Assembly: GCA_026874595.1 (NCBI GenBank) | Contig: CM049313.1 | Coordinates: 76,128,659 to 76,192,658 of the forward strand | Reading direction: 5' to 3' | DNA: 64,000 bases | Source of the DNA: Sipunculus nudus | Lineage: Eukaryota > Annelida > Sipuncula > Golfingiida > Sipunculidae | In this document: positions 14,929 through 52,894 of the stretch, one piece after another | Layout of the letters: every line of letters begins with the position of its first letter | Numbering within the stretch: position 1 is the stretch's first letter | Translations under genes and position numbers: made by a program | Notes under the pieces: model-generated | The model's database searches: none | Told to the model about the DNA's origin: nothing | The model's input: the letters and a program-made list of their open reading frames with translations, nothing else

Positions 14929-15399
14929 AGCGAACCTGTGAGCTTATGTGATGGTGCGGCGTCGTCCGTCATGCGTCGTGCCTCGTGCGTTGTCTGTACG
15001 TTAACCATAGCTATCTCAAAAACGGCAGGAGCTAGCATCACCAAATTTTTTGCAAATATTCAGTCATCAAAAAAACTATATCGGATTTTGTTTATTTTTT
15101 TTCTAACTGCATGTTCTTAGATTTTATAGGGAAACAGCTAAAAAAACTTTAAAAATCATCTTCTCTGAAACTGTCCAGCCAAATTGTCCAATATTTCACA
15201 GAAATGATTCCTGGAACAGTCTTTCTCAAGTTTGTTCGAATGGTTCCAGTTCGGAGATTTTTGGCTGAGTTACAGGAGGTTGAACTTTGTTAACTGTGCA
15301 AAAAAGCATATTAAAAATTAAATCTCAGAAACGGCTTGAGCTATCATCACCAAATTTTATGCCAATGTTGGCCACATGAGTCATATCTGAAATTGAGGT

Positions 15400-15585
15400 A
15401 TTGGTGGCGCCACCTGCATCGGCCTTTTTTGTACGGGGTCATCAGTGCCTGTATCACACTGACACCTACAAATAACTTCTTCTCTGAAACGAAATGGCCA
15501 AATTGTTTAATATCGCACAGAAATGATCCTAGGGTAGTACTTTCTGAAGTTTGTTCAAATGGTCTCAGTTCAGTGACTTTTGGCT
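15400..15585 (+). repeat. Family B module with GGTGGCGCCACC palindrome
   Basis: CTCAGAAACGG starts at 15324 and the perfect 12-bp palindrome GGTGGCGCCACC starts at 15403, 79 bases downstream. The palindrome is followed by TGCATCGGCC. The same box-palindrome spacing recurs in families A and C. Confidence 0.75.
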
Positions 15586-16140
15586 AAGTTATGGGAAGCT
15601 GAATTTAGTCATATGCCGTAACAGCCCATTTTAGCTAAGTGGCTACAAAAATCTTCTTCTCAAAAACCACTGGGCCAAATTCTTAAATCTCACACAATAA
15701 TTATCCTTAGATGTTGATAATTCAAGTTTGTTCAAATGGTCTCAGTTCAGTGACTTTTGGCTGAGTTACAGGGAGCTGAATTTAGTCATATGCCATAACA
15801 GCCAATTTTAGATAAGTGGCTACAAAAATCTTCTTCTCAACAACCACTGGGCCAAATTCTTAAATCTCACACATTAATTATCCTGAGATGTTGATAATTC
15901 AAGTTTGTATAAATGGTCTCAGTTCAGTGACTTGGCTGAGTTATGGGAAGCTGAATTTAGTCATATGCCATAACAGCCCATGTTAGCTAAGTGGCTACAA
16001 AAATCTTCTTCTCAAAAACCACTGGGCCAAATTCTTAAATCACACACAATAATTATCCTTAGTTGTTGATAATTCAAGTTTGTTCAAATGGTTTTGATTC
16101 AATGATTTTTGGCTGAGTTATGGGAAGCTGAACTTTGCCA
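15583..16140 (+). repeat. About 180-bp tandem units within family B
   Basis: Three near-copies begin with TTTTGGCTGAGTTATGGGAA at about 15580, 15759 and 15932. They continue through CATATGCCATAACAGCC, TCTTCTTCTCAAAAACC and GATAATTCAAGTTTG. The differences are point changes and small deletions. A related stretch lies at 45850-46060 in B copy 2. Confidence 0.75.
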
Positions 16141-16907
16141 TTGTGTTGTATTTTCCCATATGAGTTATAAACCTACAAAACATTTTTGACTGATGATGAT
16201 ACTGAGGCCAGTTTGTTTAATATTTTGCAAGAATCATTCCCTGAATCATTCTTATAATAATTGTCTTTTATGGTTCCAAAAAATGAATTTTGCTGAATTA
16301 TAAAGATTGAATTGAGTCATTTTACCAAATATGTTAGCTGTGTGAAACAGATACATTTAGCCTAGCACCAGTTTATCAGCATCCATTACATCATGCCTCT
16401 AGACATTTAGATTTCAGGTTATCTATGGAAAATATTGACAAGAATGTTTTTAAAAGCTTTTAAAAAATGTAGATTTATGATATTACATATCATCTGTACA
16501 CTAACTCATAATTTCTCAGGAATAGCAGGAGCTACCATCCCCAAATGTTATGCAATTATCTGTCACATATCAAATGTTGATGGATTCATCTAATTTTTGC
16601 TATCTGCATTTACTTAGATTTTACAAGGAAAAAGCTGAAAAAAACTTGTAAAAGTCTTCTTCTTGTAAACAGTCCAGCCAAATTGTCCAAATTTTACAGA
16701 AATGATCCCAGAGGCGAGCCCTCTCAAGTTTGTTCAAATGGTTTATGTTGGATAAATTTTAGCAGAGTTACATAACAGGCCAAGATTGTGTACGTTTCTT
16801 GAATAGGTTGAGAAACTGCCAACTGTTTCAGATTTGGCAACAGATCAAGAGTTCATTCAGTGCAGACAAATATAGGTCAACAGTTCAGTCAGTGCAGCCA
16901 AGCACAA

Positions 16908-16999
16908 GGCATGTGATCACCTCATGGGCAGCATGTGATCATCTCATGGGTAGCATGTGATCATCTCATGAGTATCATGTGATCACCTCATGGGTGTCA
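16908..16999 (+). repeat. 22-bp tandem repeat, four units
   Basis: GCATGTGATCACCTCATGGG and variants repeat four times inside family B. The corresponding site in B copy 2 (49709-49775) has three units, so the number varies between copies. Confidence 0.85.
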
Positions 17000-17712
17000 T
17001 GCCCCTCAGGGCTGCATATGGAGCCAATCTGTGAGCTTATGCCATTGTGTGGCTACTATTTCAGATTTGGCAATAGGCAAAAGGTCAGCCTGGATTTATT
17101 TATAGCTTTGGCAGACTGCACACTGTTTCAGATTATGCAACAGGTCAAGAGTTCACTGGTGCAGCCAGGTACAGGTCAAAAATTCACTGTCTAGCCAGGT
17201 GCAGATCAAGAGTTCACTCAGTGCAGTAGCCTGAGCCAGTAATTTTTCACAGTACACTCGGGGCAACAGCCTTTCTCACCTAAGCCTGGTCAGCCCCTTG
17301 CATTAGACTCAAGGTAAGTTTGATGTATTGGCCTGATATTCTGACCTGTCTATGTGTTTTATGGCTTTCTCGTTCACAAGACAGGTGTCGCCATCTACAA
17401 TGACTTTTGCAAAGTGTATTTGCCTGCTTAATTCTACAGAAGAATTTGATATAACAGCCTGAAATTGGGCATATGTGTACATGTCAAATAGCTTTGTTGT
17501 ATACAAGACTGGTGGTGCCACCTACAATAATTTTTGTGTTGTGTGCACCCATGCCAGAATTTCAGTAGTGATGTTTGTGTATTGTTTCTTGTTCAATATG
17601 TTTAGTACTTGCATTGTTCATATATATGAAAAGTAGTGGTTCAGCACTGAAGCGTTATACCTGGTGTATATCCATATGCACAGGTTCGCATTAGGCCTGT
17701 AGGCCTTGTTTT

Positions 17713-18554
17713 AGTTCAGCTTACTGAAAGTCAGTCGAGGTATAGGAATGGTGCTTTGTCCTCAGAAACCTAAAATAAGGTCACTGCAACCAATATCCTT
17801 TGAGGTATAGAGCTTGTTAGTATCCCCCCAGAATTATTGCATGGATTGCCATGAATCTTGCCTTGAATATTGACAATGACCAGGGTTGTAAGTTCCTGAA
17901 AATTGGTGGTGTCACCTGTGTTTTTTTTTCAAATTTTTATTATTTTTGTTTATGTCTTTGAGACCATCAGATGACAATAATTATGTAAATTTCTCAGCTG
18001 TAGTTTCATCTAGTGTCCTGAAACCTTTTTGTGTTTCTTTAAAGAGTTGAATAAGTGGATGCCTTATAGTTTAATCACCTTGTCAGGCCGTCTGTCTGAC
18101 TGTTCGTCTTCAAGTATGTCCGTCAAAAGATCAAGGTCACAGGGCCCATCTGTCCACATTTGTTTCCAGATGATACCACCTCGGTTTCAAACTTGACTCA
18201 TATATGGCCTACCACTAAAGTAAGAACTTGATTGATTTTGGGGTCTTGAGATCAAAGGTCAAGGTCACAGGACCTACTTTAAAAAGATTGTGGATGCATT
18301 TTAAGCAAACTTTTCATCACAAATCTTCCAGCTTCCACATGTGTTGCACCTGCCAATAGGGAAAGATTCTGTTTGATTTTGGGGTAACAAGGTCAGAGGA
18401 CCCATCCATTCACAAATAAGTTCATGGATGATAACTCCAGTCTGGGTAGACAGATTTGCTTTGAACGTGGTCACAGGACCCACATTTTGAAAATGCTCAT
18501 AAACATATCCTCATCGACAAATTCAGCTGGGCATCAAGACCCATGGGTTCCTAG
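17713..18554 (+). mobile_element. Helitron-like element, family D copy 1
   Basis: The 5' end AGTTCAGCTTACTGAAAGTC forms a hairpin with GTCAGTCGAG-like bases and resembles the family E start. The 3' end reads CAGCTGGGCATCAAGACC then CATGGGTTCCTAG before T, with the hairpin AGACCCATGGGT just before CTAG. GTCTGTCTGACTGTTCGTC-type microsatellite sequence is near 18090-18120, and TCAAGGTCACAGG occurs twice. It lies directly after the CTTG|TT end of B copy 1, so one inserted at the T run that bounds the other. There is no coding content. Confidence 0.6.
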
Positions 18555-20461
18555 TATTTGGGAGCATTCTAATTTAGTATATTAGACCATTGGTGTATGA
18601 TTCATAGATGGAGAAAAGTCTTGTTATGATAATCAAACAACTCAGAGGCAGCCGTTTTATTTTAAAAAGGATGAACTGTCCTTGAAAATTGAACTGCTTT
18701 CATATTGATAACAAAATACTAAATTTGTTTTATACATCTTTTGTACAAAATGTGATAACTTTCAGTATTATCTGCTGGGGGAATAATTTGTTTAATTCCT
18801 TATTGGCGGTAAATGATATCTTATTTTATATCTTATCTTATATCTTAAAGGTTTGAAAGAGCATGGATATAAAGATTGTATGGTCAGTAAAGCACCCAAT
18901 GAGAAACAAGTTTCCATTGGATAGAGTGTTCGTATTGGGTTAAGGGGGTTGTGCAAAGGATATTGAGTTCTTTGATATAAAAAATTGTTAGGCAATAAAA
19001 AGCAGTCAATTTTCTTCCAAACAAAAAAAGCAAATTTGCTGGGTGATACCAGGAGCAAGATGGCCCCCATGGGAAGTTGAACACCTGAGAGGTATCCAGG
19101 CATAAAGCGGAAAGGGCACCGGTCTATGGGAAAAGCACCAAGTTACATCTCGTCTTGTTATACATTACCCACTAATGCAAATAACAGGAAATGTAAGCCT
19201 GAGGATGTCCGAGAAGCGGAATCCGGCCAGAACATAGCTGAGTTTTATCTAAACTTCTGCGACAAAGCATGTTTTAACTGTGATGCAGGGACGTTGTGAA
19301 TAGAGTTACATGAGCTGTAGTATGGAATTCCCAGGTCTCTTTAAAGCTCGATTTAGAATTTCTTTACTTGGGTATTGAAACAGCAATTTATGGCTGTCAT
19401 CAGAGGGACTGGACTTTACGGCCTTTTGGCAGAGATAGCCTAGACACATATTGAAACAGCTCAGGCTGAAGTTTCACGGTGCATTGGATATACACAGAGA
19501 TCTGATTACAGCACTTTGTGGCCCTGAGACTACATTGGCAGAAATAAAGAATAAGATTTGATGTACAATAACGGTTCCTCTGTCAGCCAGATACCACACA
19601 CCACTGATCTAAATGAAATATGGCTAACCCTACACTTTGTCATACACAAATGTTCCCTCTCTCCCTGGAGAGATTAAACGCTGAACAGATCATACAGCTG
19701 GCTTGTGGTGGTGGTGGTGATTTTTCCCTGGGACATAGCTCTTCAGACAGTACAGGCTGGCATTATGTATTTATTACTTCCCAGAACAGAATGAGAAATG
19801 AATGTTCCCAGGCCAGCCAAGGCTGGTAGTGCTCTTTATTCCCTACACCTGTCGCCATAGTGATGGGTATTGTCATACAACTGGAACATAAATGTGAGCT
19901 GTACCTGCTTGAAACTGCTGTACCATAAAGCTTCCACAGCAAACAGGACAGTCACACACAATCACAATGTTCACTTCACTTTCCTCGTGCCATTCTGCAT
20001 TAACTGATCTTGTATGTTTGTACTGTTAACTTTATTCACATGTGCATTTGTTGGGAGTAAATTATAGTGAGTGCATGGCAGGTATGTCTCAATGTGATCT
20101 GTGGTACAGATTTCTCTGTATGATCTGTGCTTCACAGTTTATGATATTTTATGTGAACAATATTTATTGGGGCTCTAATGTGTATTTAAAGAAAGCAGGG
20201 TCTCCATATTTAAGTGAACATTATAATATGAAGGTAACAGTGATCCGCTATTAAAGAATAGCATAAAGTACCAGAGAAAGATACATGGGGAAAAATTGTT
20301 CAGTGGCATATAACATTGATTTTGTCCTTCCTCAGATTTGTATTGCTCAAAATGTCAGTGCATTGTAGCAAAACATGTAAACTTAAGCTTGAACCGTATA
20401 GTGTAAATAGTATAAGTATCAGCATTAGTATGAGTTGTATTAGTATACAAAGTATTAGTAT
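18555..20461. other. Intron-like sequence, no gene seen
   Basis: Minor features only: a TATCTTAT microsatellite-like run at 18817-18848, a GGT run near 19706, and a TTAGTAT-rich stretch at 20404-20460 directly before the LINE. The frame at 18792-19103 (-) spans the TATCT run and has no recognisable domain. Confidence 0.4.
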
Positions 20462-21972
20462 CAAGCTAAGGATTGTGAACTGGACCCTTTTCTAACCTGG
20501 CTTGTTAAGCAATATGCGGATGTTTTTATTCCAATTTCCTGTCAGTTGTGTCATATGTCTTTTTACAATTGTGAAGTTCCAGCATCTTTGAAATCGGCTA
20601 TTGTAACTCCTATATTGAAGAAAAGCAGTCTTGATGCACAGTTTTTGCACACGTTTTAAAGCACTATCGGCCAATATCTAACCTTTCGTTCCTTACTAAA
20701 GTGTTAGAAAAGATCGTTGCCACTCGTATCACTTCATATATGAAGGAAAACCATTTGTATGAAGACCAACAGTCTGCATATAGACCTTTTCATAGCACTG
20801 AAACATGCCTGCTTAAAGTATATAATGATCTCCTCTGGGCTATGGACTCTCAACAAGTATCCATTCTCATACTATTGGATTTATCTGCTGCCTTTGATGT
20901 AGTAGATCATCAGCTCCTGTTACAACGGTTGTCCACCAGGCTTGGAATAACTGGAGATGCCTTGCAATGGATCAGGTCATACCTGTGCAATCGAAGTCAG
21001 TGTATTAGTGTTGTAGGTCATAAGTCTTCTCCAACTGAGATCACTTACGGTGTTCCATAAGGTTCTGTGCTGGGGCCTCTGTTTTTTACAATTTACACAT
21101 TACCACTTGGTGAATTAGTACGACAGCATGGAATGAATTATCATTTTTATGCTGATGACAGTCAAATTTATGTATCATTTAAACCAGAATCAAAGGTTCC
21201 TATTTCTACCATTGAAACATGCTTGCATGACATAGGTGTTTGGATGTGTCAGAATCTGCTTAAACTCAATGCTGATAAAAACTGAGGTTCTGATTATCAG
21301 TACAAACCAGCAGAGGTCAAAAATTCAGTTGAAAACTCTGAACATATTTGACTCTGTAGTTGTGCCAACAAACAGTGCTAGAAACCTGGGGGTAGTGCTT
21401 GACCAAGGGCTTTGCCTTGACAAGCATGTAAATAATATTTGTAGTTTGGCTTTTTACCACCTGCATAATATAGCTAGGATAAAGGGTTTCCTAACTCAAG
21501 ATTCACTAATAACATTAATTCATGCGTTCATCAGTTCAAGGATTGACTGTTCCAACTCATGCTATGTGGTCTTCCTAGCAAGCTACTGGACCGGCTACAG
21601 AGAGTGCAGAATGCAGCTGCTAGGCTTGTAACTGGTGCCAAGAAGCGCGACCACATTACACCAATACTTAAAGAACTTCATTGGCTCTTGGTGCGACAGC
21701 GCATTGATTTTAAAATTTTATTATTAGTATATAAAGCCATAAATGGTCAATCGCATATTTACATTGGGAACCTCTTAACTTTTCATGTTCCAGTCAGGCA
21801 GCTTAGGTCATCTGACCAAGGGCTTTTAGTGATCCCTAAAGCACGAAGTGAGATGTGTCGTTTGAGAGCTATCTCAGCTGTGGCACCAAGGTTGTGGAAT
21901 GAACTTCCGCACACAATCAGAACTTCACCATCTTTAGCTTCTTTTAAAAGAAATCTTAAAACTTACCTTTTT
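20462..21972 (+). pseudogene. Reverse transcriptase of CR1/L2-like LINE (broken)
   Basis: Read in order, the frames give ELDPFLTWLVKQ and SAIVTPILKK (20471-20640), HYRPISNL (20662), motif A LDLSAAFDVVDH (20875-20910), GVP-stop-GSVLGP (21049-21078), the catalytic YADD (21148-21159), LQRVQNAAARLV (21596 on) and APRLWNELP near the C-terminus. Damage seen: a frameshift between 20640 and 20658, a TAA in place of the usual CAA glutamine at 21058-21060, one extra A in the A run near 21280, and a missing base near 21561. The catalytic aspartates remain, but the gene cannot make a protein. APRLWNELP and the QNAAARL segment are typical of the CR1/L2 group C-terminus. Confidence 0.85.
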
Positions 21973-23031
21973 AGCCCTCAGCCCTTAGGCTGATGGGCTA
22001 TTGTGGTCACCCAAGCTGTCCGTTCGTCCCTATGATCATAGTAAGTATTGTGAAAATCCAGCCAATGGTCCGTTAACTTTTACCTTGTGAGCGGGATATC
22101 TTGAAAAGGATTCACCGTCAGAATTTTATTTCCTCGGTAAAGATGTATATCGACAAAATCTCGGTCAAGTTCGAAGATGGGTGACCTTGACCTATTTTTC
22201 TACATTTTAGACCTGATTATAGAAAAACACTTAGATGCTTATTCCTCAGGAACTATTTGGTGGATTTTCACAAAACTTACTATGATTATTGGGATTGATA
22301 ATCTGTACCTGCTACACAAGTTTGGTGGCGCCACCTACAATATCTGATTTTTAATGAATTTTTATCGGATTTTTCAACTTTTGGCTTGTGAGCGGGATAT
22401 CTCTAAAAGGATTCACCGTAGGAATTTTATTTTTTTGGTGAAGATGTATATTGACAAAATCTCGGTCAAGTTCGAAGATGGGTGACCTTGACCTATTTTT
22501 CTACGTTTTAGAGCTGATTATAGAAAAAACATTTAGAAGCTTATTTCTCAGGAACCATTGGCTGGATTTTCACAATACTTACTATGATCATAGGGAGTGA
22601 TGGTCTGTAACTGCTGCACAAGTTTGGGGGCGCCACCTGCAATTTCTGATTTTTAATGAATTTTTCTTGGATTTTTCAACTTTGGCCTTGTGAGCGGGAT
22701 ATCTCTAAAAGGATTCACAATAGGAATTTTATTTCTTTGGTGAAGATGTATATCGACAATATCTCAGTCAAGTTCGAAGATGGGTGACCTTGACCTACTT
22801 TTCAAGGTCACAGAGCTGATAATAGAATAAAACTTAGAAGCTTATTTTTCAGGAAGCATTTGGTGGATTGTTATGAATCATGGTACATACCTCTCCATTT
22901 TAAATTTGTAACTGAGACATGTACAGATATACATCCATGTGAGAACAGATATTTAGTACTTGTTACTGTTACCACCTCTAAACACTGTTCTTTTGGCTGA
23001 GGGCTTTTGTCAGCTTCTGCTGATATTCTAG
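21973..23031 (+). mobile_element. Helitron-like element, family A copy 1
   Basis: It starts AGCCCTCAGCCCTTAGGCTG, a 5' hairpin (AGCCC.TCAGCC paired with GGCTGATGGGCT), after a T run. It ends with GGCTGAGGGCT, the exact inverse of the first 11 bases, then the hairpin TCAGC-ttct-GCTGA and TATTCTAG before TT. CTAG is a Helitron-type CTRR end. The interior holds three tandem units of about 301 bp starting CTTGTGAGCGGGATATC at about 22084, 22385 and 22687, two of them with a GGCGCCACC palindrome. It is inserted in the LINE after a CCTTTTT run, with no evident target duplication. There are no genes inside. Confidence 0.75.
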
Positions 23032-23221
23032 TTATATTAGCTTTTGGTAGTTCTTAGAAATTAGGGTTTTCTTTTAGGAATCTTTACTTTAGTAGGAATC
23101 TACATTTTATGTTTTAGTAAAACTGTGCTTTGTGTCTTGTAAAGTGCTTTTGATAACTATTTTGTTGAATCAGCGCTATATGAATTAAATATATTATATA
23201 TCAACATGAGTATGGATATAC

Positions 23222-26439: not shown

Positions 26440-26470
26440 GTAAGTAATAACTTTTTCCAAATATGTGTCT

Positions 26471-27950: not shown

Positions 27951-28204
27951 AGCTCAGCTGACTATAAGTCATCTGAGTTATAGTTGTGGTCCATTGTCCG
28001 TCGGTCCGTCCGTCTGTAGATGTGGCACATTTTGTACCATAAGATCTAGGAATCCAGAATTCGTCATGATGTTAGATGTCACAAAGATCTCCTACCAAGC
28101 CGAAAAACTGGGCCTTTGTGACTTCGTTCCTTTGAGAAATTAAGGAAAAACCTCAGTTTTTAGCTCAGCTGACTATAAGTCATCTGAGCTATAGTCGTGG
28201 TCCA

Positions 28205-28247: not shown

Positions 28248-30727
28248 AGATGTGGCACGTTTTGAAACCATAAGACCTAGGAATCCAAAATTCAGCATAA
28301 TGTTAGATGTCCCCAAGATCTCCTACCAAGCCGAAAACTGGGTCTTTGCGACTTCATTCCTTTGAGAAATTAAGGAAAAACCTCAATTTTTTATTAAAAA
28401 CCTATTTTCACACTTCAGGACTGCCTAATATCAAAACCACTCATCTGTTTTACCTCATATTTACCATAAATATTCCTCTATATAGTTCCGATGTACATGC
28501 CAGAAATTATGTCTGTATTATTTAATTTAAAAAAGTTATGGGCCCAAACATAATGCATTTTGTAAAAAATCAGAAAAGATATTTGATCACTTAACACAAA
28601 AAATGTTAATGCTATGGACCTTTTTTCCAGTAATATAACTTTAATTAATCAAAATTAAATTGTATACCCAAAATAAGATGAAAATCTTTTAAATTTTTTA
28701 AAATATTAATAAAAATAAAAAATTGGTACCTTAAATTTTGCCCAACTTTGACCATGGCACTTTTTTTCCTGTAAGTACTGTGGATTTAATTTTCACAGCA
28801 TGTTTTTGTTAGCATTTCAACTGTTAACACAAAAAATTTGAAACCAGTTGATCAAAAACTGTAGATTTTAATCAAGTTTTCAAGCACCATGTAACATATT
28901 GTTTACATCAAGCTAGTGTTATGCAGTTTGCAAGAGCTCAGCTCCCCAGCTTCAGCTCTAAGTTCCTTAAATTCGGCATACAGTTAGATTTCTCCAAAAT
29001 GCCCAACCATGCCAAGAATTTGGTCACTAGGACATTCGAGATATTAATGAAAAACTTCATTTTTCCATTAAAAACCCATTGTTACACTTCAAGACTGCCT
29101 AATATCAAAACCACTGATCTGACTTTAATCATAAATAATATACATATTTTTCATTCTCTATGCACATGCCAGAATGATGTCAGTATTGTGTAATTGTTTT
29201 AAGTTATGGGCCCAAACATAATGCACTTTGTAAAAAATCAAGAAATATATTTACTCCCTTAACAAGAGCATTGCTGAAGCTAGAGATTTTTTTGTCAGGG
29301 ATGTAACATTATTTAATCAAGATTCAATTGAATACCCAAAATTAGTTCTGAATTTTTCAAATTTTATTTAGTATAAATATAAAATTAGTACCTTAAATTT
29401 TGCCCAACTGTGACCATGGCACATTTGTTTCCCGTGAGCACTGTTGATATAATTTTCATATCATGCACACATAAGCATTTCAGCTTTTTAGTTTAGAAAG
29501 CTGAAAGAAATTGGCCAAAAATTGTAGCTTTTATTAATGTTTTTTATGAGACCCTGTCAGACTTTGGCTCTCTCCAGCCCCTCTTGAGTCACCTGTATGT
29601 TGACCTTGTTGACCTTTCATCAAATTATGCATGCTTGAGGCGAGGCATACATGGAATCCAGGCAGCTTATGGCAAGCCACAGTTGATCCAGGTGTCCAAC
29701 CCAACTCATCTAGTAGTTTTAACCAAGAACATAACAAAAAACAATAAATTTATAAATTTTTATTGGTTTTTAATAACAAATTAAAAAAAAATAGAAAAGG
29801 AATTTGTTAGTTTATAATAACAGGAAATTAACTTGCAGTTACTGATGATATAAGAATCTTGTATCGATGGGTAGAATGTCACATATTCCAAATAACACCA
29901 TGCAGTCACCTATGGCATTTTTCAGTTCAATTTTAATGATAAAGAAGTAAATCATATTATTCATTACTAATCATTAGGGATCATATGAAGGAAATTAGAC
30001 AAAGATGCAGTTGATAATATTAATCTAGATTCCTGCTGTGTCTAGTGTGTACAATGATGTGAAATTAATCCAAAATGAATTTTTTACAGTTATTTTTATG
30101 CCCCCGCCACAAAGTGGCCGGGGCATATAGTTTTACCCATGTCCGTCATTCCGTCATTCCAAAATCAAACAGTTGTACGGACTTTTTTTCGCAATGCCTG
30201 CAGATATTGGCCTGATTTTTGGTGTGTGGGCAGATAATGACCAGTTACAGATCGAGTTCGCGTTTCATCCTGGTTGACCTATTTTGAGCGTTTTACAGCT
30301 CCTAAACTTAGAAAATTTCATGAAAAATAGAAATTTTCATGACAAATACACATGTACGGACTTTTTTTCGCAGTGCCTGCAGATATTGGCCTGATTTTTG
30401 GTGTGTGGGCAGATAATGACCATTTACAGATCGAGTTCGTGTTTCGTCTTGATTGACCTTCTTTTGGGCGTTTAACGGCTCCTAAACTTAGAAAATTTCA
30501 TGAAAAATAGAAATTTTCATGACAAATACACATGTACGGACTTTTTTTCGCAATGCCTGCAGATATTGGCCTGATTTTTGGTGTGTGGACAGATAATGAC
30601 CAGTTACAGATCGAGTTCGCGTTTCGTCCCGGTTGACCTACTTTTGGGCGTTTTACGGCTCCTAAACTTAGAAAAATTCATGAAAAATAGAAATTTTCAT
30701 GACAAATACACATGTACAGCTGTTTTT

Positions 30728-31406
30728 AGCCCTCAGCTCATAGGCTGATGGGCTATTGTCGTCACCCAAGGTGTCCGTCTGTCCATCTGTCTGTCCGGTG
30801 TATGTCCGTCCGTCCGTCCGTCCGTTCCGCGTCTGTTAACTTTTACCTTGTGAGCGGGATATCTCTAAAAGGATTCACCATTAGAATTTTATTTCATCAG
30901 TGAAGATGTATATCGATAAAATCTCGGTCAAGTTCGAAGATGGGTGACCTTGACCCATTTTTCTGCATTTTAGAGCTGATTATAGAAAAACAATCAGAAG
31001 TTTATATCTCAGGAACCATTGTGTGGATTTTCACAAAACTTACTATGATCATTTGGACTGATGGTCTGTATGTGCTGCACAATTTTGGTGGCGCCACCTG
31101 CAATTTCTGATTTTTTAATGAAATTTTATCGGATTTTTTCAATTTTGGCCTGTTGTGCAGGATATCTCTAAAGGTATTCAACACAGGAACTACATTTCTT
31201 CAGTGTTATTGCATTATATTTACAAAATCTTGGTCAGGTTCAAAGATGGGTGATCTTGACCTACTTTTCAAGCTCACAGAGCTTAGTATAGAAAAAAACT
31301 TAGGAGCTTATTTCTCAAGAAGCATTTGGTGGATTGTTATGAGACATGGTATATACCTCTCCAATTTAAATTTATAAATGATTATCAACTTTTGCTAATA
31401 TTCTAG
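30728..31406 (+). mobile_element. Helitron-like element, family A copy 2
   Basis: AGCCCTCAGCTCATAGGCTG starts it after CTGTTTTT, and ATATTCTAG ends it before TTTCGCAATGC. The uninterrupted host unit at 30531 reads GACTTTTTTTCGCAATGC, so the insertion lies within a T run with no obvious duplication. It has about two core units, one GGTGGCGCCACC palindrome (31087 region) and a GTCC microsatellite. The 3' GGCTGAGGGCT motif and strong hairpin of A1 are missing, so this is a subtype. Confidence 0.75.
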
Positions 31407-31772
31407 TTTCGCAATGCAATGCTTACAGATACTGGCCTAATGTTTGGTCTGTGGGCGCATAATGACCACTTACAGATCGAGTTCGCGTTTCATCCCAGTT
31501 AACCTATTTTTCACCATATGACAAACCTGAACATAGAAAATTTCATGAAAGACTGAAATTTTCATGACAAATACACATGTACGGACTTTTTTTCGCAATG
31601 CCTGCAGATATTGGCCTGATTTTTGGTGTGTGGACAGATAATGACCAGTTACAGATCGAGTTCGCGTTTTGTCCCGGTTGACCTACTTTTGGGCGTTTTA
31701 CGGCTCCTAAACTTAAAAAAATTCATGAAAAATAGAAATTTTCATGACAAATACACATGTACAGCTGTTTTT

Positions 31773-32447
31773 AGCCCTCAGCTCATAGGCTGATGGGCTA
31801 TTGTCGTCACCCAAGGTGTCCGTCTGTCCATCTGTCTGTCCGGTGTATGTCCGTCCGTCCGTCCGTTCCGCGTCTGTTAACTTTTACCTTGTGAGCGGGA
31901 TATCTCTAAAAGGATTCACCATTGGAATTTTATTTCATCAGTGAAGATGTATATCGATAAAATCTCGGTCAAGTTCGAAGATGGGTGACCTTGACCCATT
32001 TTTCTGCATTTTAGAGCTGATTATAGAAAAACAATCAGAAGTTTATATCTCAGGAACCATTGTGTGGATTTTCACAAAACTTACAATGATCATTGGGACT
32101 GATGGTCTGTATGTGCTGCACAATTTTGGTGGCGCCACCTGCAATTTCTGATTTTTTAATGAAATTTTATCGGATTTTTTCAATTTTGGCCTTTTGTGCA
32201 GGATATCTCCAAAGGTATTCAACACAGGAACTACATTTCTTCAGTGTTATTGCATTATATTTACAAAATCTTGGTCAAGTTCAAAGATGGGTGATCTTGA
32301 CCTACTTTTCAAGCTCACAGAGCTTAGTATAGAAAAAAACTTAGGAGCTTATTTCTCAAGAAGCATTTGGTGGATTGTTATGAGACATGGTATATACCTC
32401 TCCAATTTAAATTTATAAATGATTATCAACTTTTGCTAATATTCTAG
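31773..32447 (+). mobile_element. Helitron-like element, family A copy 3 (duplicate of copy 2)
   Basis: It is nearly identical to copy 2 and has the same flanks, because it was copied by the 1,045-bp tandem duplication and not inserted independently. The palindrome is at about 32129-32140. It ends ATATTCTAG before TTTCGC. Confidence 0.8.
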
Positions 32448-35026
32448 TTTCGCAATGCAATGCTTACAGATACTGGCCTAATGTTTGGTCTGTGGGCGCA
32501 TAATGACCACTTACAGATCGAGTTCGCGTTTCATCCCAGTTAACCTATTTTTCACCATATGACAAACCTGAACATAGAAAATTTCATGAAAGACTGAAAT
32601 TTTCATGAAAAATGCACATATATGGACTTTTTTTCACAATGCCTGCAGATACTGGCCTGATTTTTGGTGTGTTGCTTGATAATGACCCTTTACAGATCGA
32701 GTTTGCATTTTGCCCTTGTTGACCTACTTTTGACCATACAACACTTCCTGAACTTAAAAAAATTTACAAAATTTAACAAATGTTTCTATTTGCCCCAGGC
32801 GGGGGCATTCGTGTCGTTCCGACACATCTAGTTTAATATAAATAAAAGCCATAAAACCAGGTGCTTATGATCATTATTTAAATGTGTGAATTTTGTATAT
32901 TCTGGATTCTCAACATCATTGTTTGGTGAAAACTGAATAAATTCCAGACATGGTGCAAATACTTTGTAATTGTATTTAAATACGAATATGATTTTGTACT
33001 CCATTATAAAATTTCTTGCATCAAGAATTGGAATTCAGGTAAAAATGAAAATATATGAATACTCGTGCAAATACTTTCAAAATGTATTCATGAATGCATT
33101 CATGAATATATTCTTTAATATTATTTTAATAATCATATCAGTTATATTTCATTTTAAAAAATCATATGATTCTCTTATTATTTTTAATAAAAATTATATT
33201 TGAGACAATATTTGTATTTTTTTTAATAAATAGTTAAACTCTTATATTATATGTTCTGCTTATAAGTTATATGGCCAAGTCAAAATCTGTGTGACAATAG
33301 TACATTTGTTAATAAAATAAATGAAATCAATCCTCTTCCCTGTCTCCAAAGGTACTATCAAAATCATACATAAGCTAAACAACAACAACTCATAATACAG
33401 CTTATATTTATTACCACACAAAACCAGCATGTGCCTCATTTCTAAATAATATTTTTTTATCATATATAACAGCTGAGCGTCGTGACCCATAGGTCCCTTG
33501 TTTTAATTAAAAACTTATTTTCACACTTCAGGACTGCCTAATATCAAAACCACTTATCTGTTTTTCCTCATATTTTCCATAAATATTTCTCTATATAGTT
33601 CCTATGTACATGCCAGAAATAAGGTCTGTATTATATAATTTAAAAAAGTTATGGGCCAAAACATTTTGCACTTATTAAAAATCAGAAAAAATATTTGGTC
33701 ACTTAACACAAAAAAATGTTAAAGCTAGGGACTTTTTCAGTAATATAACTTTAATTAATCAAAATTTAATTGTATTCCCAAAATTTGATCAAAATCTTTT
33801 TAAATTTTTTAAAATATTAGCAAAAATATAAAATTGGTACCATAAATTTTGCCCAAATTAGACCATAGCAAGTTTTTTTCTCGTAAGTATATTTAATTTA
33901 TTTTTCCCGGCTGGGATACATGTTGATTTAATCTGTTGAATTCTGAAATTTGAAAGTAAAAGCTTAAAAATTATTCTAATTATTGAAGTATTTCAGATGC
34001 CCTTATAAATTTGCATTTTGTATATCCAAGACCAAACTTGCTCACTACAGCCTTGCCTAGGTAACCTTATTAGTGATGCAGCACTGGCAGAACACCCCTG
34101 CTGTAATAAACATACACTTATTCTCATGGGCCCTACCCCCCACCACCACCACCATCACCAATTATATTGCAATATATGGTTTGTTATTTTCAACTGCATT
34201 TCTTTAAATGTAAAGATGTTTTTGATCCACTGTGCACAGCTTTTCTTGAAATATTAATTCAAGAAGTAATCCAAGAGATGCCACGTTGTTCTGATGTAGC
34301 ATTTTTAAGAAATTATTTCCTTTTAAATAATTAAACAAAATATAATTTTACCCATCAGTAGGCATAATTGATAATATATGAAACAAATCATGGATAAATA
34401 ATGGTGCAATTAAAATTGTGAATTGTGGAGTGTTGTTTTCATATATTTATTGCTTTGCAAATTTAAAAAATTTATTTTATAACAAAAAAGAAATATATCT
34501 GTGTGCATAATGTGATGTTACCTGACTAAATAAGTATAAATGTTGATGCAATTTAGATTTTTGAATCAGTTTAAATATTCAGATATATATGATATACTGT
34601 AAATATATAGTAAAATTTATAAACTTAAAAAAATGACTTCACAAAAGAAAAATAGGATCTAATGCTAATATTTGTTCATTATTTCCTGTATCAGTAAAAT
34701 GGAAATTAAAGTTATTTGCTATTTTTTCCATCTCTCTGCCTGTTTTTAAATAGTTAAAAATAATTTCATTTTAAATAGATTTTATCCTTTACGTTTATGC
34801 AGAGATGCAGAGGTGCTGTAACTCCCACCAGTCCTTGTAAGCACCGTTGAATTTAATTCATTAATCTGTATTTATATCCAAAGGTGTTGTAACTCTCCCC
34901 CCCCCAGTCATTGAGCCCTAATTCCTGAGCACTGAGGATAGTATTTTTATTGCAACTTCAAAAAAACATTGGTGATGCAGTTATAACTGTCACAATCAGC
35001 TGAGCCCATGACCCATGGGTCCCTTG

Positions 35027-39839: not shown

Positions 39840-40545
39840 CTCGCAAAACTGTGACTTATGCAAGGGGAGTGTTGGCTGTCATCCAACTTCTGCCATATGT
39901 ACGTTAACCCATATTATCTCAAAAAAGGCAGGAGCTAGAATCACCAAATTTTATGCAAAAAATCAGTCATTTGAAAAACTATCTGATTGAACTTATTTTT
40001 TGCTATCTACATTGAATTATATTATATAGGGAAAAGGCTAAAATCAAATTTAAAAATCTTCTTCAAAACTTCTGGCCAAATTGTTTAATATTTCACAGAA
40101 ATAATTCCTGAAATTATCTCTCACGATTGTTTGGCCGAGTTACAGGAAGATGAACTTAGTCGTTTTGCCAAAAAGATTACTAAAATTACAATCTCAGAAA
40201 TGGCTGGACCTATTATCACCAAATTTTATGCAAAGATTTGTCACATGAGTTGAATTTGCAATTGAGGTATTTGTGGTGCCACCTGCATCAGCCTTTCTTG
40301 TATGGGGGTTATCAGTCATCGGTACATTAACTTATAATTTCTCAGGAACAGCTGGAGCTTATGATCACAAAATTTTATGCAAAAAGCAGGCCCATGTCAA
40401 ATGTTGTGGGATTGAGCTCTCTGTGAGCCACCTGCATCAACTTATATTTTATGGGGAAATAGCTAAAAAGCCTTTCAAAATCTTCTTCTCATTCAGCCAA
40501 ATTGTTCAATATAATTTCACAGAAAAGATGTTATGTCTGATTTTG
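39840..40545 (+). repeat. Decayed family B fragment
   Basis: CGCAAAACTGTGACTTATGC resembles the family B start. GTACGTTAACCCATATTATC, GGCAGGAGCTAGAATCACC and GTGGTGCCACCTGCATCAGC then follow in the same order as in B1 and B2. The 3' part of the family is missing. The 91-codon frame at 40273-40548 is a translation of this repeat. Confidence 0.65.
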
Positions 40546-42930: not shown

Positions 42931-43065
42931 CAGTGAAATCTCACTAACACGACCATCTGGTGGGAGCTAGGTTTTATGATGATTTTTACTTTCATCTACC
43001 AAAAAAGTAGTGGTCTTAGTGAGCGTGGTCATCTTAACAGAATGGTCATCAGATGACTTGCACTG
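42931..43065. mobile_element. Small pogo-like MITE candidate
   Basis: CAGTGAAATCTCACTAACAC then GACCA starts it, and the inverse-type end CACTG is followed by TA. GTGGTCTTAGTGAGCGTGGT lies inside. The ends share only a few bases in inverted orientation, but the 'CACTAA.ACGACCA' phrase is typical of pogo/Tigger-derived MITEs. Weak support. Confidence 0.4.
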
Positions 43066-45296: not shown

Positions 45297-47151
45297 AGCG
45301 AACCTGTGAGCTTATGTGAGGGTGTGGCGTCGTCCGGCGTCTGTACGTTAACCCATACTATCTTGAAAAAGGCAAGAGTAAGCATCAGGAAATTTTATGC
45401 AAAAAAATAGTCATCTAAAAAACTATCCGATTTTGCTTATTTTTTGGCTAACTGCATTTTCTTAGATTTAATAGGGAAAAAGCTAAAAAAGCTTTAAAAA
45501 TCTTCTTCTCTGAAACTGTTTGGCCAAATTATCCAATATATCACAGAAATGATCCCTGGAACAATCTCTCTCAAGTTTGTTCGAATGGTTTCAGTTTAAA
45601 ATTACAATCTTAGAAACGGCCGGAGCTATCATCACCAAATTTTATGCCAATGTTGGTCACATGAGTCATATCTGAAATTTAGGTATTAGTGGCGCCACCT
45701 GCATTGGCCTTTTTTGTACGGGGGTCATCAGTGCCTGTATCATAATGACAGCTACCAAAAACTTCTTCTCTGAAACCTTATGGCCAAATTGTTTAATATC
45801 GCACAGAAATAATCCCAGGTTAGTGTTTTCTGAAGTTTGTTCAAATGGTCTCCGTTCAGTGACTTTTGGCTGAGTTATGGGAAGTTAAATTTAGTCATAT
45901 GCCATAATAGCCCATTTTAGCTCAGTGGCTACAAAAATCTTCTCAAAATCCACTTGGCCAAATTCTTAAATTTCACACATTAATTATCCTTAGATGTTGA
46001 TAATTAAATAAATGGTTTTGGTTCATTGATTTTTGGCTGAGTTATGGGAAGCTTAACTTAAGTAGCCATTTTGCTTTATTTTCTCATATGAGTTATAAAC
46101 CTGCAAAACATTGTTTTGACTGACGCCACTGAAGCCAATTTGTTTATTATTTTACAAAAATAATCCCCTAAATAATTCTTATAATAATTGTCTTTTATGG
46201 TTCCAAAGAATGAATTTTGGCTGAAGTATAAAGATTGAATTGAGTCATTTTACCATATATGTTAACTGTGTAAAGCAGATACATCTAGCCTGGAACCAGT
46301 TTATCAGCATCCATTACATCATGCCTCTAGACATTTAGATTTCAGGTTATCTTTGGTTAATATTGGCAAGAATGTTTTTTAAAAACTTTTCAAAAATGTA
46401 GATTTATGATTTTAGATATTCCTCATGCCAGGCAATGTTTACAATCACAGGTATACGTTATCCCATACTATTTCAAAAACAAATGGAGCTAGCATCATGA
46501 AATTTAATGCAAAAAACTAGCCATCTGAAAAAATCTGCATTTTCTCAGATTTGATAGAAAAAAAAGCTAAAAAACCTTAAAAAATCTTCTACTCTGAAAC
46601 GGTCAAGCCAATTTCTTCAGTATTTCACAGAAATAATCTTTTATACCATCTCTCTCAAGTTTGTTCAAATGGTTCAGGATCGGTGAATTTTGGCAGTATT
46701 ACAGGAAGTTGAACCTAGTCATCTGTCCAAAAAAACATACTCAAATGACAATCTCAGAAACGGCCAGAGCTATCACCAAATTTTATGCCAGTGTTGGTCA
46801 CATGAGTCATATATGAAATTCAGGTATTGGTGGCGCCACCTGCATTGACCTTTTTTTTATATGGGGGTCATTGTTCATCTGTATATTAACCCATAACTTC
46901 TCAGGAATATCAGGAGCTACCATTCCCAGATTTTATGCAGTAATCTGTCACATATCAAATGTTGTGGGATTTAGCTTACTTTTTTCATTATCTGTATTTA
47001 CTTAGATTTTATAGGGGAAAAGCTGAAAAACCTTTAAAAGTCTTCTTGTAAACGGTCCAGCCAAATTGTTCAATATTTTACAGAAATGATCCCAGAGGCA
47101 ATGGTTTGCATTTGATGAATTTTAGTGGAGTTAAACGAATTTGAACAGTCA

Positions 47152-49004
47152 GGCCAGACTTTTTTAATTCTTTGGTTTACGAACATGATTGACAAAAGTG
47201 ATAGGTAGGAGGTAGGAAAAAAAAAAAAAAAAAATTGGAACAAACCTGGATACTGGTGTTCCTGAATCCTGTATTGTACAGTTGGGTTATAAAATTCATA
47301 TTTTAATGGCTCTATATAAACCTGTATAAAATATATAAGATAATATATAAAAATTAAAATATTATCATCATCCTCTCGAGTTTTCCACATGAATCTTGCT
47401 TTGGCCATGTTATTTCAAGCCATTCAAATGTCATTGAAGGTAAATTAATGACAAATAAAAGTTTTAACAGTAAAACTTATGATTTCATACACACCTGAAA
47501 TAAAAATTCAGTCACTGTCCCTGCCAAGTGAACTGCCTATTTTATAAAGTTTTACAAATTAAAGACCAGTCAAACACATACAAATATAAAATATTTTTTT
47601 TTGTCTGATATGCAAGGAGAAAACTTAATATTCACTGCTAGCATGATAGACTGCAGTTTAAATATAAAATATTTTTTTTTGTCAGATATGCAAGGAAAAA
47701 ACTAAATATTCACTGCTAGCATGATAGACTGCAGTTTTTATTTTTCAGTCGTGAATGACAATAACAATGACAATATGCGACTTGCTGCTATTCGCCTATT
47801 GTTTATCAAATGTCAACAACATGGAACTCGAGTTGTTTGATTCATGACCATGTCCTTTCCTTTTTGGTGTTGCGCATGTTTGACAGTCCTTTGAATATAC
47901 AACAACTGCTAATAAAGTGAGGTTTCCATTGGAGATCACATTGAAATATTCAACTATTTTAAATTTTAAAAAGGATTAATAATCTTTATTTATTCATCTG
48001 CATTTCCTACCATGGCCGTGACAGTACGTACCGTACTCATTTTAATATGCCGTCACTTGGCCACTGTCAGTCCGGAATTGCTTTTCGGCATCCATATACA
48101 TCAAATCTTCCATCACATCCGTTTGGAACAATTAAATGAATCCTTTCAAAGTTTCTGCATTATAAATGGCTTTCATTTTAGCTTGCTTTTGTTTTGACTA
48201 TAAAATATCCGCAAAGCCAACGCGCTGCAACGCTTCACATAAAACCGCGCCACTAAGACTACAGATAGTCGGAAATACTGCAGTAACCCTGAGAATTCTT
48301 GGAGTTTTCAAAGAGTACATGACAACCTCATGCAGTATATAATTTCATCTGTTCAGTAATTTTCTTTTAAGCGTTACAAGACTACATTTTTAAGTTTTGA
48401 CAAGTTTTAATATTTTTAAGAGTAAGCTTGTGAAACTTAGCCAATTCGCAGTAATTAATAGCATCTGACTTTGAGTGCAATAATTCGTCATAAGAAGTAA
48501 ATTTGTGTGTATATCCAGCAAGTTATTAACAGTGGCAAGCTGGTAAAGCCGCTATGCAACCAAACTAATTTTCTTTTCTAATTCACATCTATCTATAACA
48601 AATATGTTTAACAAATATGACCAAAACGCTGGTTTGAAAATGTATTGTAGTGCAGAAAACGAACTTTGAAAACTCTCCAAGAATTCTCAATTTCCCTGCT
48701 GAATCTTTTGACTACTTGATGGCCAATCAATTGCATTTATGGCCCAAGGATACCCTATTTTGATTGGCTTAAACCCTCCATCTGTCATTAAGAAAGTGAC
48801 CTTATTAGCCAATTATAAGTTCTAACATTTGAGGTGATCTAATACACATGGTCAATAAACAATTCATTTGTCAACAACCGTGCTGGATTCGGCGACGTAA
48901 TATAAAAAGAAAAAAAAGTAAAAATGCCAATTTGATTTTTTTTCTGAAATGAGGAAATTAGAGGTCGGCGGTTTGGTTAACCGAAAAATTAAAAAAGTGT
49001 GGCC
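47152..49004. mobile_element. Inverted-repeat DNA transposon inside family B
   Basis: The ends GGCCAGACTTTTTTAATT and AATTAAAAAAGTGTGGCC are inverted with one mismatch over 18 bp, and similarity continues a little further inside (CTTTGGTTTACGAAC against TTTCGGTTAACCAAAC). No clear target duplication is visible. B-family sequence lies on both sides. The 1.85-kb interior has no recognised transposase; frames at 47070-47408 (-) and 48012-48197 (+) lack domains. It contains a tandem duplication at 47582-47738. Superfamily unknown. Confidence 0.5.
47582..47738 (+). repeat. 78-bp direct tandem duplication
   Basis: AAATATAAAATATTTTTTTT then GT.TGATATGCAAGGA and ATTCACTGCTAGCATGATAG occur twice, at 47582 and 47660, with a few substitutions. 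Confidence 0.85.
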
Positions 49005-50211
49005 ACATTTGGCCAAGTAAGCATACTGACATATTTATCTCAGAAATGACAGAAGCTAGCATTACCAAGTATTGTGCAAATGTTGGTCATATGACTCATA
49101 TTTGAAGTTGCAGATTTTGTGGTGCCACCTTCATTGACCTGTTTTTAATGGGCAAAAACCTCATAATTTAAGCCTCTTTCAGCTTAAAATGTTTATGATG
49201 AAAACTGTCAAGTTGAATTGTTCAATTTTTCAATAGAATTATCCTAGGACATGGTTCTTTCAATTATATCAGAAAAACTTAAATTGGTCTTATGGTCATT
49301 TTTATGTCTAACTCAAACTGAGGACTGCAAAACTGTTCTTCTACAAAATGATTGTTTCAATTATAACGTCTGTAACATGGCACAAAAATTATTCTTAGGT
49401 AGTCTTTGTTCAAGTTTACTTAACTTATTTTTGGCAGAATTATTGGGCCTAGACAATGAAAGAACTGCATCTTTTATTATTCTAGATATTTTGATAAAAA
49501 AAATTATGAATATTTCAGCTTGAAAAAAAAACATTTTAGCCAAAGTCTTTAAGTATGTGTAAACAGATTTGCCAACAGGCCAAGATTGTGTCTGTATATT
49601 TAAATAGGTTAAGAAACTGTCAACTGTTTCAGATTTGGCAATAGATCAAGGGTTCATTCAGTGTAGCCAGATATAGGTCAAGAGTTCAATCAGTGCAGCC
49701 CAGCACAAGGCATGTGATCCCCTCATGGGTGACATGTGAACACCTCATGGACACCATGTGATCACCTCATGGGTGTCATGTCCCTCAGGGCTACATGTGG
49801 AACCAATCTATTTATAGCTTTGGCAGACTGCCAACTGTATCAGATTATGCAACATGTCTAGAGTTCACTCAGTGCAGCCAGGTACAGGTCAAAAGTTCAC
49901 CCAGTCTAGCCAGGTGCAGGTCATGAGTTCACTCGGTGCAGTAGCCTGAGCCAGCAAATTTGTTATAGTTCACTCTGCCTTTCTCACCTAAGCATGGTCA
50001 GCCCCATACATCAGACTCAAGGTAAGTTTGATGTATTGGTCTAATATTTTGACCTGTCTTTGTGTCTTTGATGGCTTTCTCGTTCACAAGACAGGTGTCA
50101 GCACCTACAATGACTTTTGCACAGCGTGTGACTTTTGTGCCTGCTTATTTCTATAGAGGAATTTGGTATATCATCCTGAAATTGGGCATATTTATACCTA
50201 TCGAATACCTC

Positions 50212-51415
50212 TGTCCTAGACATGGTCACTTTTTAGCCCTCAGCCCTTAGGCTGATGGGCTATTGTCGTCACCCAAGCTGTCCGTCCGGCGTCCGTTAAC
50301 TTTTACCTTGTGAGCGGGATATCTTGAAAAGGATTCACCGTCAGAATTTTATTTCCTTGGTAAAGATGTATATCGACAAAATCTCGGTCAAGTTTGAAGA
50401 TTTGTGACATCGACCAATTTTTCTACATTTTAAAGCTGATTATAGAAAAACACTTAGATGCTAATTACTCAGGAACCATTTGGTGGATTTTCACAAAACT
50501 TACTATGTTTATTGGGACTGATAGTCTGTACCTGCTACACAAGTTTGGAGGCGCCACCTGCAATTTCTTATTTTTTAATCAATTTTTATCGTATTTTTCA
50601 ATTTTGGCCTTGTGAGCGGGATATCTCTAAAAGGATTCCCTGTAGGAATTTTATTTTTTCGGTGAAGATGTATATTGACATAATCTCGGTCAAGTTTGAA
50701 GATGAGTGGCCTTGACCTATTTTTCTCTGTTTTAGAGCTGATTATAGAAAAAACTTTTAGAAGCTTATTTCTCAGGAACCATTGAGTGGATTTTCACAAT
50801 ACTTACTATGATCATAGGGACTGATGGTCTATAACTGCTGCACAAGTTTTGGGGCGCCACCTACAATATCTGACTTTTAATTAATTTTTCTTTGATTTTT
50901 CAACTTTGGCCTTGTGAGCGGGATATCTCTAAAAGGATTCACAATAGGAATTTTATTTCTTTGGTGAAGATGTATATCGACAAAATCTGTATCAAGTTTG
51001 AAGATGGGTGACCTTGACCTACTTTTCGTGGTCACAGAGCTTATAATAAAATAAAACTTAGAAGCTTATTTTCAGGAAGCATTTGGTGGATTGTTATGAA
51101 TCATGGTACATACCTCTCCATTTTAAATTTATAACTGAGACATGTAAAGATATACATCCATGTGAGAACAGATATTTATAACTTGTTACTGTTACCACCT
51201 CTAAACACTGTTGAGGGCTTTTGTCAGCTTCTGCTGATATTCTAGTTAAAAGATTGTTACAATAATCCTAATGCTGCAAGTTCAAGGATATTAAGTTCTA
51301 AGATTTTTTTGGTCACAAGGGTATTGGTTAAGGTCCCAGGACTGTCATTCTGAAAAATTTCTTTAAAATATCCTTATAGACAAATTCAATTGAGCATTGA
51401 GACCCATTGGTCCCT
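50212..51415 (+). mobile_element. Family D fragment (copy 2) split by family A
   Basis: CATGGTCACTTTTT before A4 and AAAAGATTGTTAC after it together match GGTCACAGGACCTACTTTAA then AAAGATTGTGG in D1 (about 18260-18290). The right end GAGACCCATTGGTCCCTAG before TTATG matches the D1 terminus. The 5' part of D is missing. It lies within family B copy 2. Confidence 0.55.
50235..51245 (+). mobile_element. Helitron-like element, family A copy 4
   Basis: AGCCCTCAGCCCTTAGGCTG starts it after CACTTTTT. It ends GAGGGCTTTTGTCAGCTTCT then GCTGATATTCTAG before TTAAAAG. It has three ~301-bp units (starting near 50307, 50609 and 50910) with GGCGCCACC palindromes at about 50549 and 50852. It is close to A1 over its full length but has a shorter GTCC region. 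The 85-codon frame at 50458-50715 is a repeat translation. Confidence 0.75.
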
Positions 51416-51484
51416 AGTTATGTTGTGTGCACCCATGCCAGAATTTCAGCAGTGATTTTTGTGTAATTGTTTCTTATTGTATTT

Positions 51485-52894
51485 GCCAAAACGAAGTTTT
51501 GCGGATACTATGTTTTTGACTGGGTTCCACCACCGTGTTCGTTTCCGGAGAACTCCTCTGAGACTACTGGGCAGATTTTTCCCGAACTTACACCAATTAT
51601 CGGGTCACGTGAACTGGTGCCTAACCAACTGGCCTTGACCTCAGACCTTTCCTCTCTGCCCAGCATCCGTTTGTGCGTCTGTTTCCACAGATAAACTCAC
51701 ATATCTCGGGAACCGTTTGAACGATCAGGAAAAAAATTTACAGAAATGTAGCCCTTGGATAGCTTTATGGCATACACAAAAAATGGTGGCGCCACCTGCA
51801 GCAATTTTAGCACAGTGTCCATCTGTTCATCTGCCTTGGGTTAAAATCCCTCATATCTCTGCAGTGGTTTGACTAATTCACCTGAAATTTGGCATGCCTA
51901 TACATCGTAGATAGCTTTCTTGATTTTATGACAGGTGGCGCCACCTACATTCACGTTCACGCTGCAGACTTCCAAGCTTATATCTCAGGAACCATTCGAC
52001 CAATCAGGGAAAAAATTTTACACAAATGTAGACCTTGGATAGCTTTATAACATACACAAAAATGGTGGCGCCACCTGCTTCCATTTTCGCACAGCTTCCA
52101 TCTGTTTGTCTGCCTTGGGTTAAAATCACTCATATCTCTGCAGTGGTTTGACCAAATGACTTGAAATTGGGCATACATATACATCCCGCATAGCTTTCTT
52201 GATTTCATGACAGGTTGCACCACCTACATTCACGTTCACACTGTAGACATCCATTCCTATATCTCCTGACTCATTCGACCAATCAGGAATAAAATTTCAC
52301 ACAAATGTAGCCCTTGGATAGCTTTATAATATACACAGAAATGGTGGTGCCACCTGCAGCCATTTTTGCACATCTGTTTGTCTGCCTTGGGTTAAAATCA
52401 CTCATATCTCTGCAGTGGTTTGACCAAATTACCTGTAATTTGGCATGCGTATACATCCTTTATAGCTTTCTTGATTTTATGACAGGTGGCGCCAGCTTCA
52501 TTCACGTTCACACTGCAGACATTAATGCTTATATCTCTGGACTCATTTGACCAATCAGGAAAAAAAATTGACACCTTGGATAGCTTTATAACATATAACA
52601 GCCATTTTTGCAGAGTGTCCATCTGTTTGTCTGCTGTGGGATAAAATCACTCATATCTCTGCAGTGGTTTGACGTTTCAACCTGAAATTTTGCATGTTTA
52701 TACATCTTGGATAGTTTCTCGTTCAAATAACAGGTGGCGTCCTCTACAATCATGTTTACATGGCAGACATCCATTCTAATATGTAACACATCTAACTCTA
52801 TTTCCCCTTGCCTATCAATCCATGCCTCACTTAACCCGTCCTACTCTGATTTTGGCGGATACACGTAGTCGCTTGTCGACTACCCTTATTCTAG
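51485..52894 (+). mobile_element. Helitron-like element, family C
   Basis: The 5' end GCCAAAACGAAGTTTTGCGG forms a hairpin after ATTT. The 3' end has TTTTGGC (inverse of the start), then the hairpin GTAGTCG-cttgt-CGACTAC with 7 perfect pairs, and CCTTATTCTAG before TTC. The interior alternates two unit types: one ends in ATGGTGGCGCCACCTGC (51785, 52063, 52340) and the other in ACAGGTGGCGCCACCTAC or variants (51934, 52209, 52484, 52731). It is inserted in family B copy 2, whose sequence continues on both sides. Minus-strand frames at 51978-52789 are repeat translations. No helicase. Confidence 0.75.

Follow-up and report, generated by a model that had tools for sequence, protein, structure and literature searches.

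Several non-coding transposon families of Sipunculus nudus share one ancient repeat unit, whose 12-bp palindrome probably helps them to spread

Introduction

The closest described systems to the DNA considered here are non-coding elements and satellite repeats of bivalves, for which we draw on parts of two accounts (PMC7492417 and PMC5139131). HINEs (Helentron non-autonomous elements) are short, non-coding kin of the Helentrons, which transpose by a rolling-circle route. The HINE and Pearl elements include Cg_HINE of Crassostrea gigas (PMC7492417), and CvA, CvE and DTC84 (PMC7492417, PMC5139131). HINE central tandem repeats are abundant in bivalves (PMC7492417), and DTC84 is cited as having a conserved palindrome near its repeat junction (PMC5139131). 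The BIV160/Cg170 (HindIII) family has monomers of ~160 bp that retain two conserved motifs despite divergence (PMC5139131, PMC7492417), and the phBglII400 satellite of Ruditapes philippinarum has a 12-bp palindrome inside which junctions cluster (PMC5139131). We have analysed a stretch of 64,000 nucleotides from the sipunculan Sipunculus nudus (assembly GCA_026874595.1, contig CM049313.1, positions 76,128,659 to 76,192,658), which we call the window and number from its first letter. In it a short box, CTCAGRAAC or similar, is repeatedly followed at near-constant distance by the palindrome GGTGGCGCCACC. We find that several non-coding transposon families share one ancient repeat unit that carries this pair.

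The box and palindrome form a real pair

Against an expectation of 0.37, the window has 23 sites that match GGTGGCGCCACC with up to two mismatches, including 8 exact copies. The whole genome (1,426,538,692 bases in 153 contigs) contains 111,729 exact copies, compared with 14 of a reversed-pattern control; with up to one mismatch the numbers are 218,178 and 575. CTCAGRAAC followed by the palindrome 66–96 bp on occurs in 4,209 + 4,119 pairs genome-wide, and in none for the control. The pair is therefore real. The strict box lies beside only ~7% of exact palindromes (8,328/111,729), and a looser, ATATCTC-type box is present in most of the units inspected. The sites are spatially clustered, such that eight arbitrary 10-kb stretches from other contigs contain no exact palindrome, and units occur in only one of these (L025, with five). 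The box and palindrome patterns had no match in viral contigs nor in prokaryote genome contigs, collections that say nothing about molluscs. Among the literature matches listed, in the parts of the texts available, the letters of the palindrome correspond only to a text on bacterial chitinase, and none of those for CTCAGGAACC is about these repeats by title.

The units are homologous monomers

The units were compared in 18 stretches picked for exact palindromes and the eight arbitrary 10-kb stretches, together with the window. A palindrome-masked profile of 84 exact sites, applied at a threshold of E ≤ 0.01, found 202 units, 27 of them in the window. The palindrome is spanned by 187 of the 202, being exact in 94, with one change in 53, two in 26 and three to five in 14. 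For the 26 such units from the window and the arbitrary stretches the corresponding numbers are 8, 9, 7 and 2. When the palindrome was masked in both model and target, held-out exact sites were recovered in 45 of 51 and 42 of 43 cases (87/94), compared with 179/2000 and 647/2000 random positions. Of the seven sites missed, five belong to A units, and that training half had no members of the A family.

Clustering of 175 units, the remainder being too incomplete, gave seven groups, whose names are our own: C2 (57 units), C1/D (53), E (33), B (15), A (8), and two further small ones with 5 and 4 units. All are homologous monomers, repeated in the central tandem arrays of HINE-like elements, and they run in one orientation relative to the element. 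A sequence-only reading of the window had proposed that families differing in their ends share a single module, and had suggested a very old common unit as its possible origin. The first is what we find, the module being the central repeat of these elements, and the second is borne out by the homology of the units.

The features of the window are as follows, all on the plus strand.

15324–15414, B unit: box CTCAGAAAC, 79-bp spacing, exact palindrome at 15403–15414
14930–17706, putative B-type HINE-like element: subterminal inverted repeats (subTIRs) 14930–14940 and 17679–17689 (inverted repeat by script, ends by pattern)
17693–17706, 3' hairpin of the B-type element 14930–17706 (by eye)
Within 14930–17706: the B unit, a 177-bp tandem array, and decayed units at 17384 and 17511
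22245–22335, A unit: box CTCAGGAAC, 79-bp spacing, exact palindrome at 22324
22547–22637, A unit: box CTCAGGAAC, 79-bp spacing, palindrome at 22626 with one change
21973–23023, putative A-type HINE-like element: subTIRs 21973–21983 and 22995–23005, 302-bp array 22075–22869
23010–23023, 3' hairpin of the A-type element 21973–23023 (by eye)
31008–31098, A unit: exact palindrome at 31087, A left end upstream at 30728
32049–32139, A unit: exact palindrome at 32128, A left end upstream at 31773
40193–40283, decayed B unit: CTCAGAAAT, 79 bp, TGTGGTGCCACC
45609–45699, B unit: imperfect box CTTAGAAAC, 79 bp, AGTGGCGCCACC
46753–46840, B unit: 76-bp spacing, exact palindrome
49039–49129, decayed B unit: CTCAGAAAT, 79 bp, TGTGGTGCCACC
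50235–51237, A-type element: left end at 50235, degraded right end from 51209 (right limit by eye)
50468–50558 and 50771–50861, A units of the element 50235–51237
51480–52883, putative C-type HINE-like element: left-end hairpin at 51480, right end with hairpin from 52848 (hairpin limits by eye)
Array of the C-type element 51480–52883, C1 and C2 alternating: palindromes at 51785, 51934, 52064, 52213, 52343 and 52485

The spacings previously read from the sequence were recovered, at 79 bp (22245–22324, 15324–15403 and 45609–45688), 80 bp (51984–52064) and, for a shortened unit, 76 bp (46753–46829). The pair at 45609/45688 keeps its 79-bp spacing, but both its motifs are imperfect (CTTAGAAAC and AGTGGCGCCACC). 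Decayed versions had also been proposed; those at 17511, 40272 and 49118 are among the 27 units of the masked model, but the site reported at 12190 (12191, GGTGGCACCACC) is absent and may be due to chance or be too old. Units additional to that reading have palindromes at 22626, 31087, 32128, 50547, 50850, 51785, 51934, 52213, 52343 and 52485, and one further unit lies on the minus strand (5185–5320).

An ATATCTC-type box precedes the A box by about 145 bp (for example at 22401 and 30863) and is followed ~79 bp on by GGTGACCTTGACC, which contains what we take to be a nuclear-receptor-like half-site. We considered whether the A unit is a dimer, with this second box and GGTGACCTTGACC near the position of a palindrome, and this was not established: identity past the box is 27, 32 and 29 of 88, values matched by 397, 42 and 161 of 2000 shuffles.

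The carrier elements

The elements have a hairpin or subTIR at the left end, continue with the array, and close with a subTIR followed by a 3' hairpin. The palindrome occurs in elements of four terminus types (A, B, C and E), and in every type inspected the order from box to palindrome follows the left-to-right direction of the element. Where an A left end lies within ~600 bp of a unit, the unit is downstream and on the same strand in 12 of 12 cases among the matches listed. Exact left-end patterns number 1,284 + 1,257 for A and 1,120 + 1,169 for C genome-wide.

Their anatomy matches that of published bivalve HINEs, as far as it is set out in the parts of PMC7492417 used here, and the carriers are filed as putatively HINE-like. 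For A and B the subTIRs come from a script, for C and E from patterns of the ends and inspection by eye; a 3' palindrome or hairpin is seen by eye at the right ends of all four types. Central tandem repeats are present, and GTCC-like microsatellite tracts occur in A and E and are not clear in B and C. Runs of T precede the A and E left ends, and most of those of B.

The elements nest in one another. Of the 12 C left ends in the stretches studied, five come after one and the same E-unit sequence, which suggests the copying of an E element that already carried a C element. The palindrome was also considered as a landing pad for nested insertion, and this was set aside by inspection. It lies within 80 bp before left-end matches in 6/12 cases for C, 2/27 for E, 0/5 for A, 0/9 for B and 0/2 for G; five of the six C left ends constitute one composite context, and many E matches and one of the two G matches are a single left-end hairpin read on both strands.

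A HINE-like element at 30098–32813 (ends ATGCCCCCGCC and GGCGGGGGCAT) has 180-bp repeats without the palindrome, and two A-type copies ~1 kb apart are nested in it. At ~20500–23200 there is, by eye, a remnant of a reverse transcriptase like that of retrotransposons without long terminal repeats, with the A-type element inserted near its 3' end. Elsewhere the window has 11 tandem copies of a 52-bp unit (8843–9423), and ~95 tandem copies of an 85-bp unit (55997–64000) that continue past its end.

Spacing

The distribution of spacings was taken from 100 pairs among the matches listed, all on contig C1. A spacing of 79 bp is found in 66, 81 in 15, 80 in five, 78 in four and 77 in three, so that 93 of the 100 fall at 77–81 bp; the rarer values are 84 in three, 82 in two, and 75 and 74 in one each. 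The commonest interval is 79 bp in A, B, E and C1/D, with 81 almost equally common in C1/D, and 77 bp in C2 and one small group.

Constant spacing had been offered as a possible sign of functional constraint. We compared it with the ratio of indels to substitutions within families, which is 103/1831, or 25/1064 excluding the mixed C1/D group; the free-gap alignments behind this ratio overstate identity, and the per-pair figures are rough. In simulations using the within-family ratio, spacing as uniform as this has a probability of 0.01–0.49, depending on the assumptions. The check does not single out spacing as a constraint of its own, and we reject it as proof of one. The near-constant spacing would have been inherited along with the unit, and may have no function of its own.

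Conservation between families and decay within them

A constraint had also been proposed, and for the palindrome the comparison supports it: from family to family it varies far less than the rest of the unit does. Over the box-to-palindrome interval the seven group consensuses have pairwise identities of 35–68%, and the palindrome is 12/12 in the consensus of A, B, C1/D, C2 and E. The palindrome itself is the most conserved window of 12 columns (0.93), followed, among windows separate from it, by the box region (0.73).

Decay was measured in anchored copies, which have exact anchors on both sides. The E palindrome is intact in 73 of 100 anchored copies; a control 12-mer has its commonest form in 73 of 100, and one of two forms in 89. 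Of 100 C2 copies, 52 have an intact palindrome (52 of 79 when one local cluster of 21 is removed); for the C2 control, 79 of 100 copies show one of three forms. Thus in young dead copies the palindrome is lost at roughly the control rate or faster. The cluster, at C1:10738262-10809913, comprises C2 units whose palindrome is broken, reading GGTGGCACGACC or GGTGGCACAACC, and which mostly lie 1.4–8 kb apart.

The fastest-decaying part of the palindrome is its CpG, with C kept in 147/187 units and G in 160/187, compared with 171–186/187 at the other positions. In C1/D, C2 and B this CpG survives in a larger share of units than the other CpGs do, figures for which 18 stretches had been selected for intact palindromes. 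In A it equals one other CpG and exceeds another, and in E it is retained in 19/33, with no second CpG for comparison.

Explanations of the palindrome

Since the source copies have kept the 12 bp while the remaining unit drifted, we suggest, at about even confidence, that the palindrome, lying in the ancient monomer of HINE-like lineages, acts in cis during their propagation, and is a probable site for a dimeric protein. The pairs would belong to one monomer forming the central tandem repeats of several HINE-like lineages. The source copies of separate lineages would each keep the 12 bp, including the fast-decaying CpG, as the rest of the unit drifts, with the constraint falling on the copies that spread and not on the dead ones. 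A motif that is fixed in sources and decays in dead copies is the expected trace of a cis-acting propagation site. A dimeric protein fits best because the palindrome is perfect, without a covarying RNA structure. Such a putative symmetric protein, whether encoded by the host or by an autonomous partner, would bind the palindrome and might render source copies accessible, transcribed or replicated. Probably, then, the palindrome helps these elements to spread.

Several observations weigh against this explanation. In the small groups, of 5 and 4 units, the consensus palindromes carry one and two changes. A broken palindrome has itself been amplified, in the local cluster that makes up 21 of 100 listed sites, and 18 of the 26 stretches were chosen for exact palindromes, biasing the per-column figures. 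Of the 26 unselected units 24 were clustered, and in these the divergence of the palindrome is 0.084 compared with 0.127 for the flanks, the latter inflated by subfamily differences; the 95% interval for the difference is −0.072 to −0.014. This small sample points towards some protection of the palindrome in place. HINE-like elements starting at 27951 and 30098 have, by eye, their own repeats without the palindrome, so it is not generally needed by such elements. The potential partners inspected also lack it. The Helitron-type Rep domain (Helitron_like_N) has 143 matches, some in open frames of more than 2,000 codons; nine of these loci were inspected, and contain neither the palindrome nor these left ends. 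Three of the nine are 10-kb stretches that are 82–88% alike, and the three autonomous Helitrons inspected are without the module.

Common descent might be sufficient, with one old and functionless repeat whose palindrome only looks special through the chance amplification of subfamilies. Every group is homologous, a low indel rate accounts for the uniform spacing, and decay in anchored copies is free. Yet the palindrome window stands at 0.93 against 0.73 for the next window and 35–68% for the interval, despite fast CpG decay, and we regard this explanation as possible, if rather unlikely. The low divergence of the palindrome relative to the flanks in the 24 unselected units, and the very large number of identical sites, could instead indicate that copies are kept where they lie for use by a host protein in architecture or regulation. 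Loss of the palindrome in anchored copies is at least as fast as in controls, however, and the 80 kb of arbitrary stretches contain no exact site, which makes retention for the host quite improbable.

The pair had also been suggested to be a recombination module. Arrays that broke and expanded at the palindrome would have a precedent in the clam satellite phBglII400, as described in the part of PMC5139131 consulted, and C1 and C2 do alternate within arrays. But in the few arrays examined, by eye, the ends vary in position within the unit and miss the palindrome, and right-hand sequences remain with their own left halves among the matches listed (also by eye), so that a site of recombination or array growth seems very unlikely. 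Most improbable of all is a structured RNA, in which box and palindrome would lie within a conserved fold or ribozyme. The order is fixed, the spacing is near-constant, and the palindrome could form a 4-bp hairpin. Nevertheless the six family consensuses fold to the 4 palindrome pairs only, with no compensatory change; the RNA fold proposed earlier finds no covariation outside the palindrome's own hairpin. The window contains no Rfam family at gathering score, and a search of it for tRNA found none.

Returning to a cis-acting site for propagation, a motif fixed across lineages as its surroundings drift gives a concrete handle on what use HINE central repeats may be to the element. The 12-bp motif could be used as a probe for finding a protein. 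We also raise, as a doubtful extension, that a host protein recognises GGTGGCGCCACC and that several HINE lineages kept the site to exploit that protein, thereby scattering more than 100,000 identical sites. If that were true, some of these sites may by now have a role in chromatin architecture or in the regulation of genes. CTCF sites spread by short interspersed nuclear elements are a case for comparison.

Comparison with known systems

The CENP-B box is a short motif kept across divergent satellite repeats and bound by a dimeric protein. Its sequence is different, and the sites here are dispersed.

The bivalve repeats are compared by their descriptions in the portions of the sources used. 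The BIV160/Cg170 repeats, with two conserved motifs in ~160-bp monomers, resemble the units here in outline and also form central repeats of HINEs. Two published BIV160 primer sequences, the only part compared, match the window no better than shuffles, and on these two sequences the units would not be filed as BIV160/Cg170. The phBglII400 repeat of the clam similarly has a 12-bp palindrome, but its junctions cluster there, and none do so in the arrays inspected here. A conserved palindrome within central repeats has a precedent in DTC84, compared by description only.

The broadest likeness is to the HINE and Pearl elements of bivalves. Shared features are a left flank with subTIR and inverted repeat, a GTCC-like microsatellite (in A and E here), central tandem repeats, a right flank with subTIR and palindrome, the absence of coding sequence, and perhaps an oligo-T insertion context. 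In the literature searched, so far as its text was available, we found no description of a shared exact palindrome inside HINE central repeats. Unlike the bivalve HINEs as described there, the elements of S. nudus have different termini and share one exact 12-bp palindrome in their central repeats.

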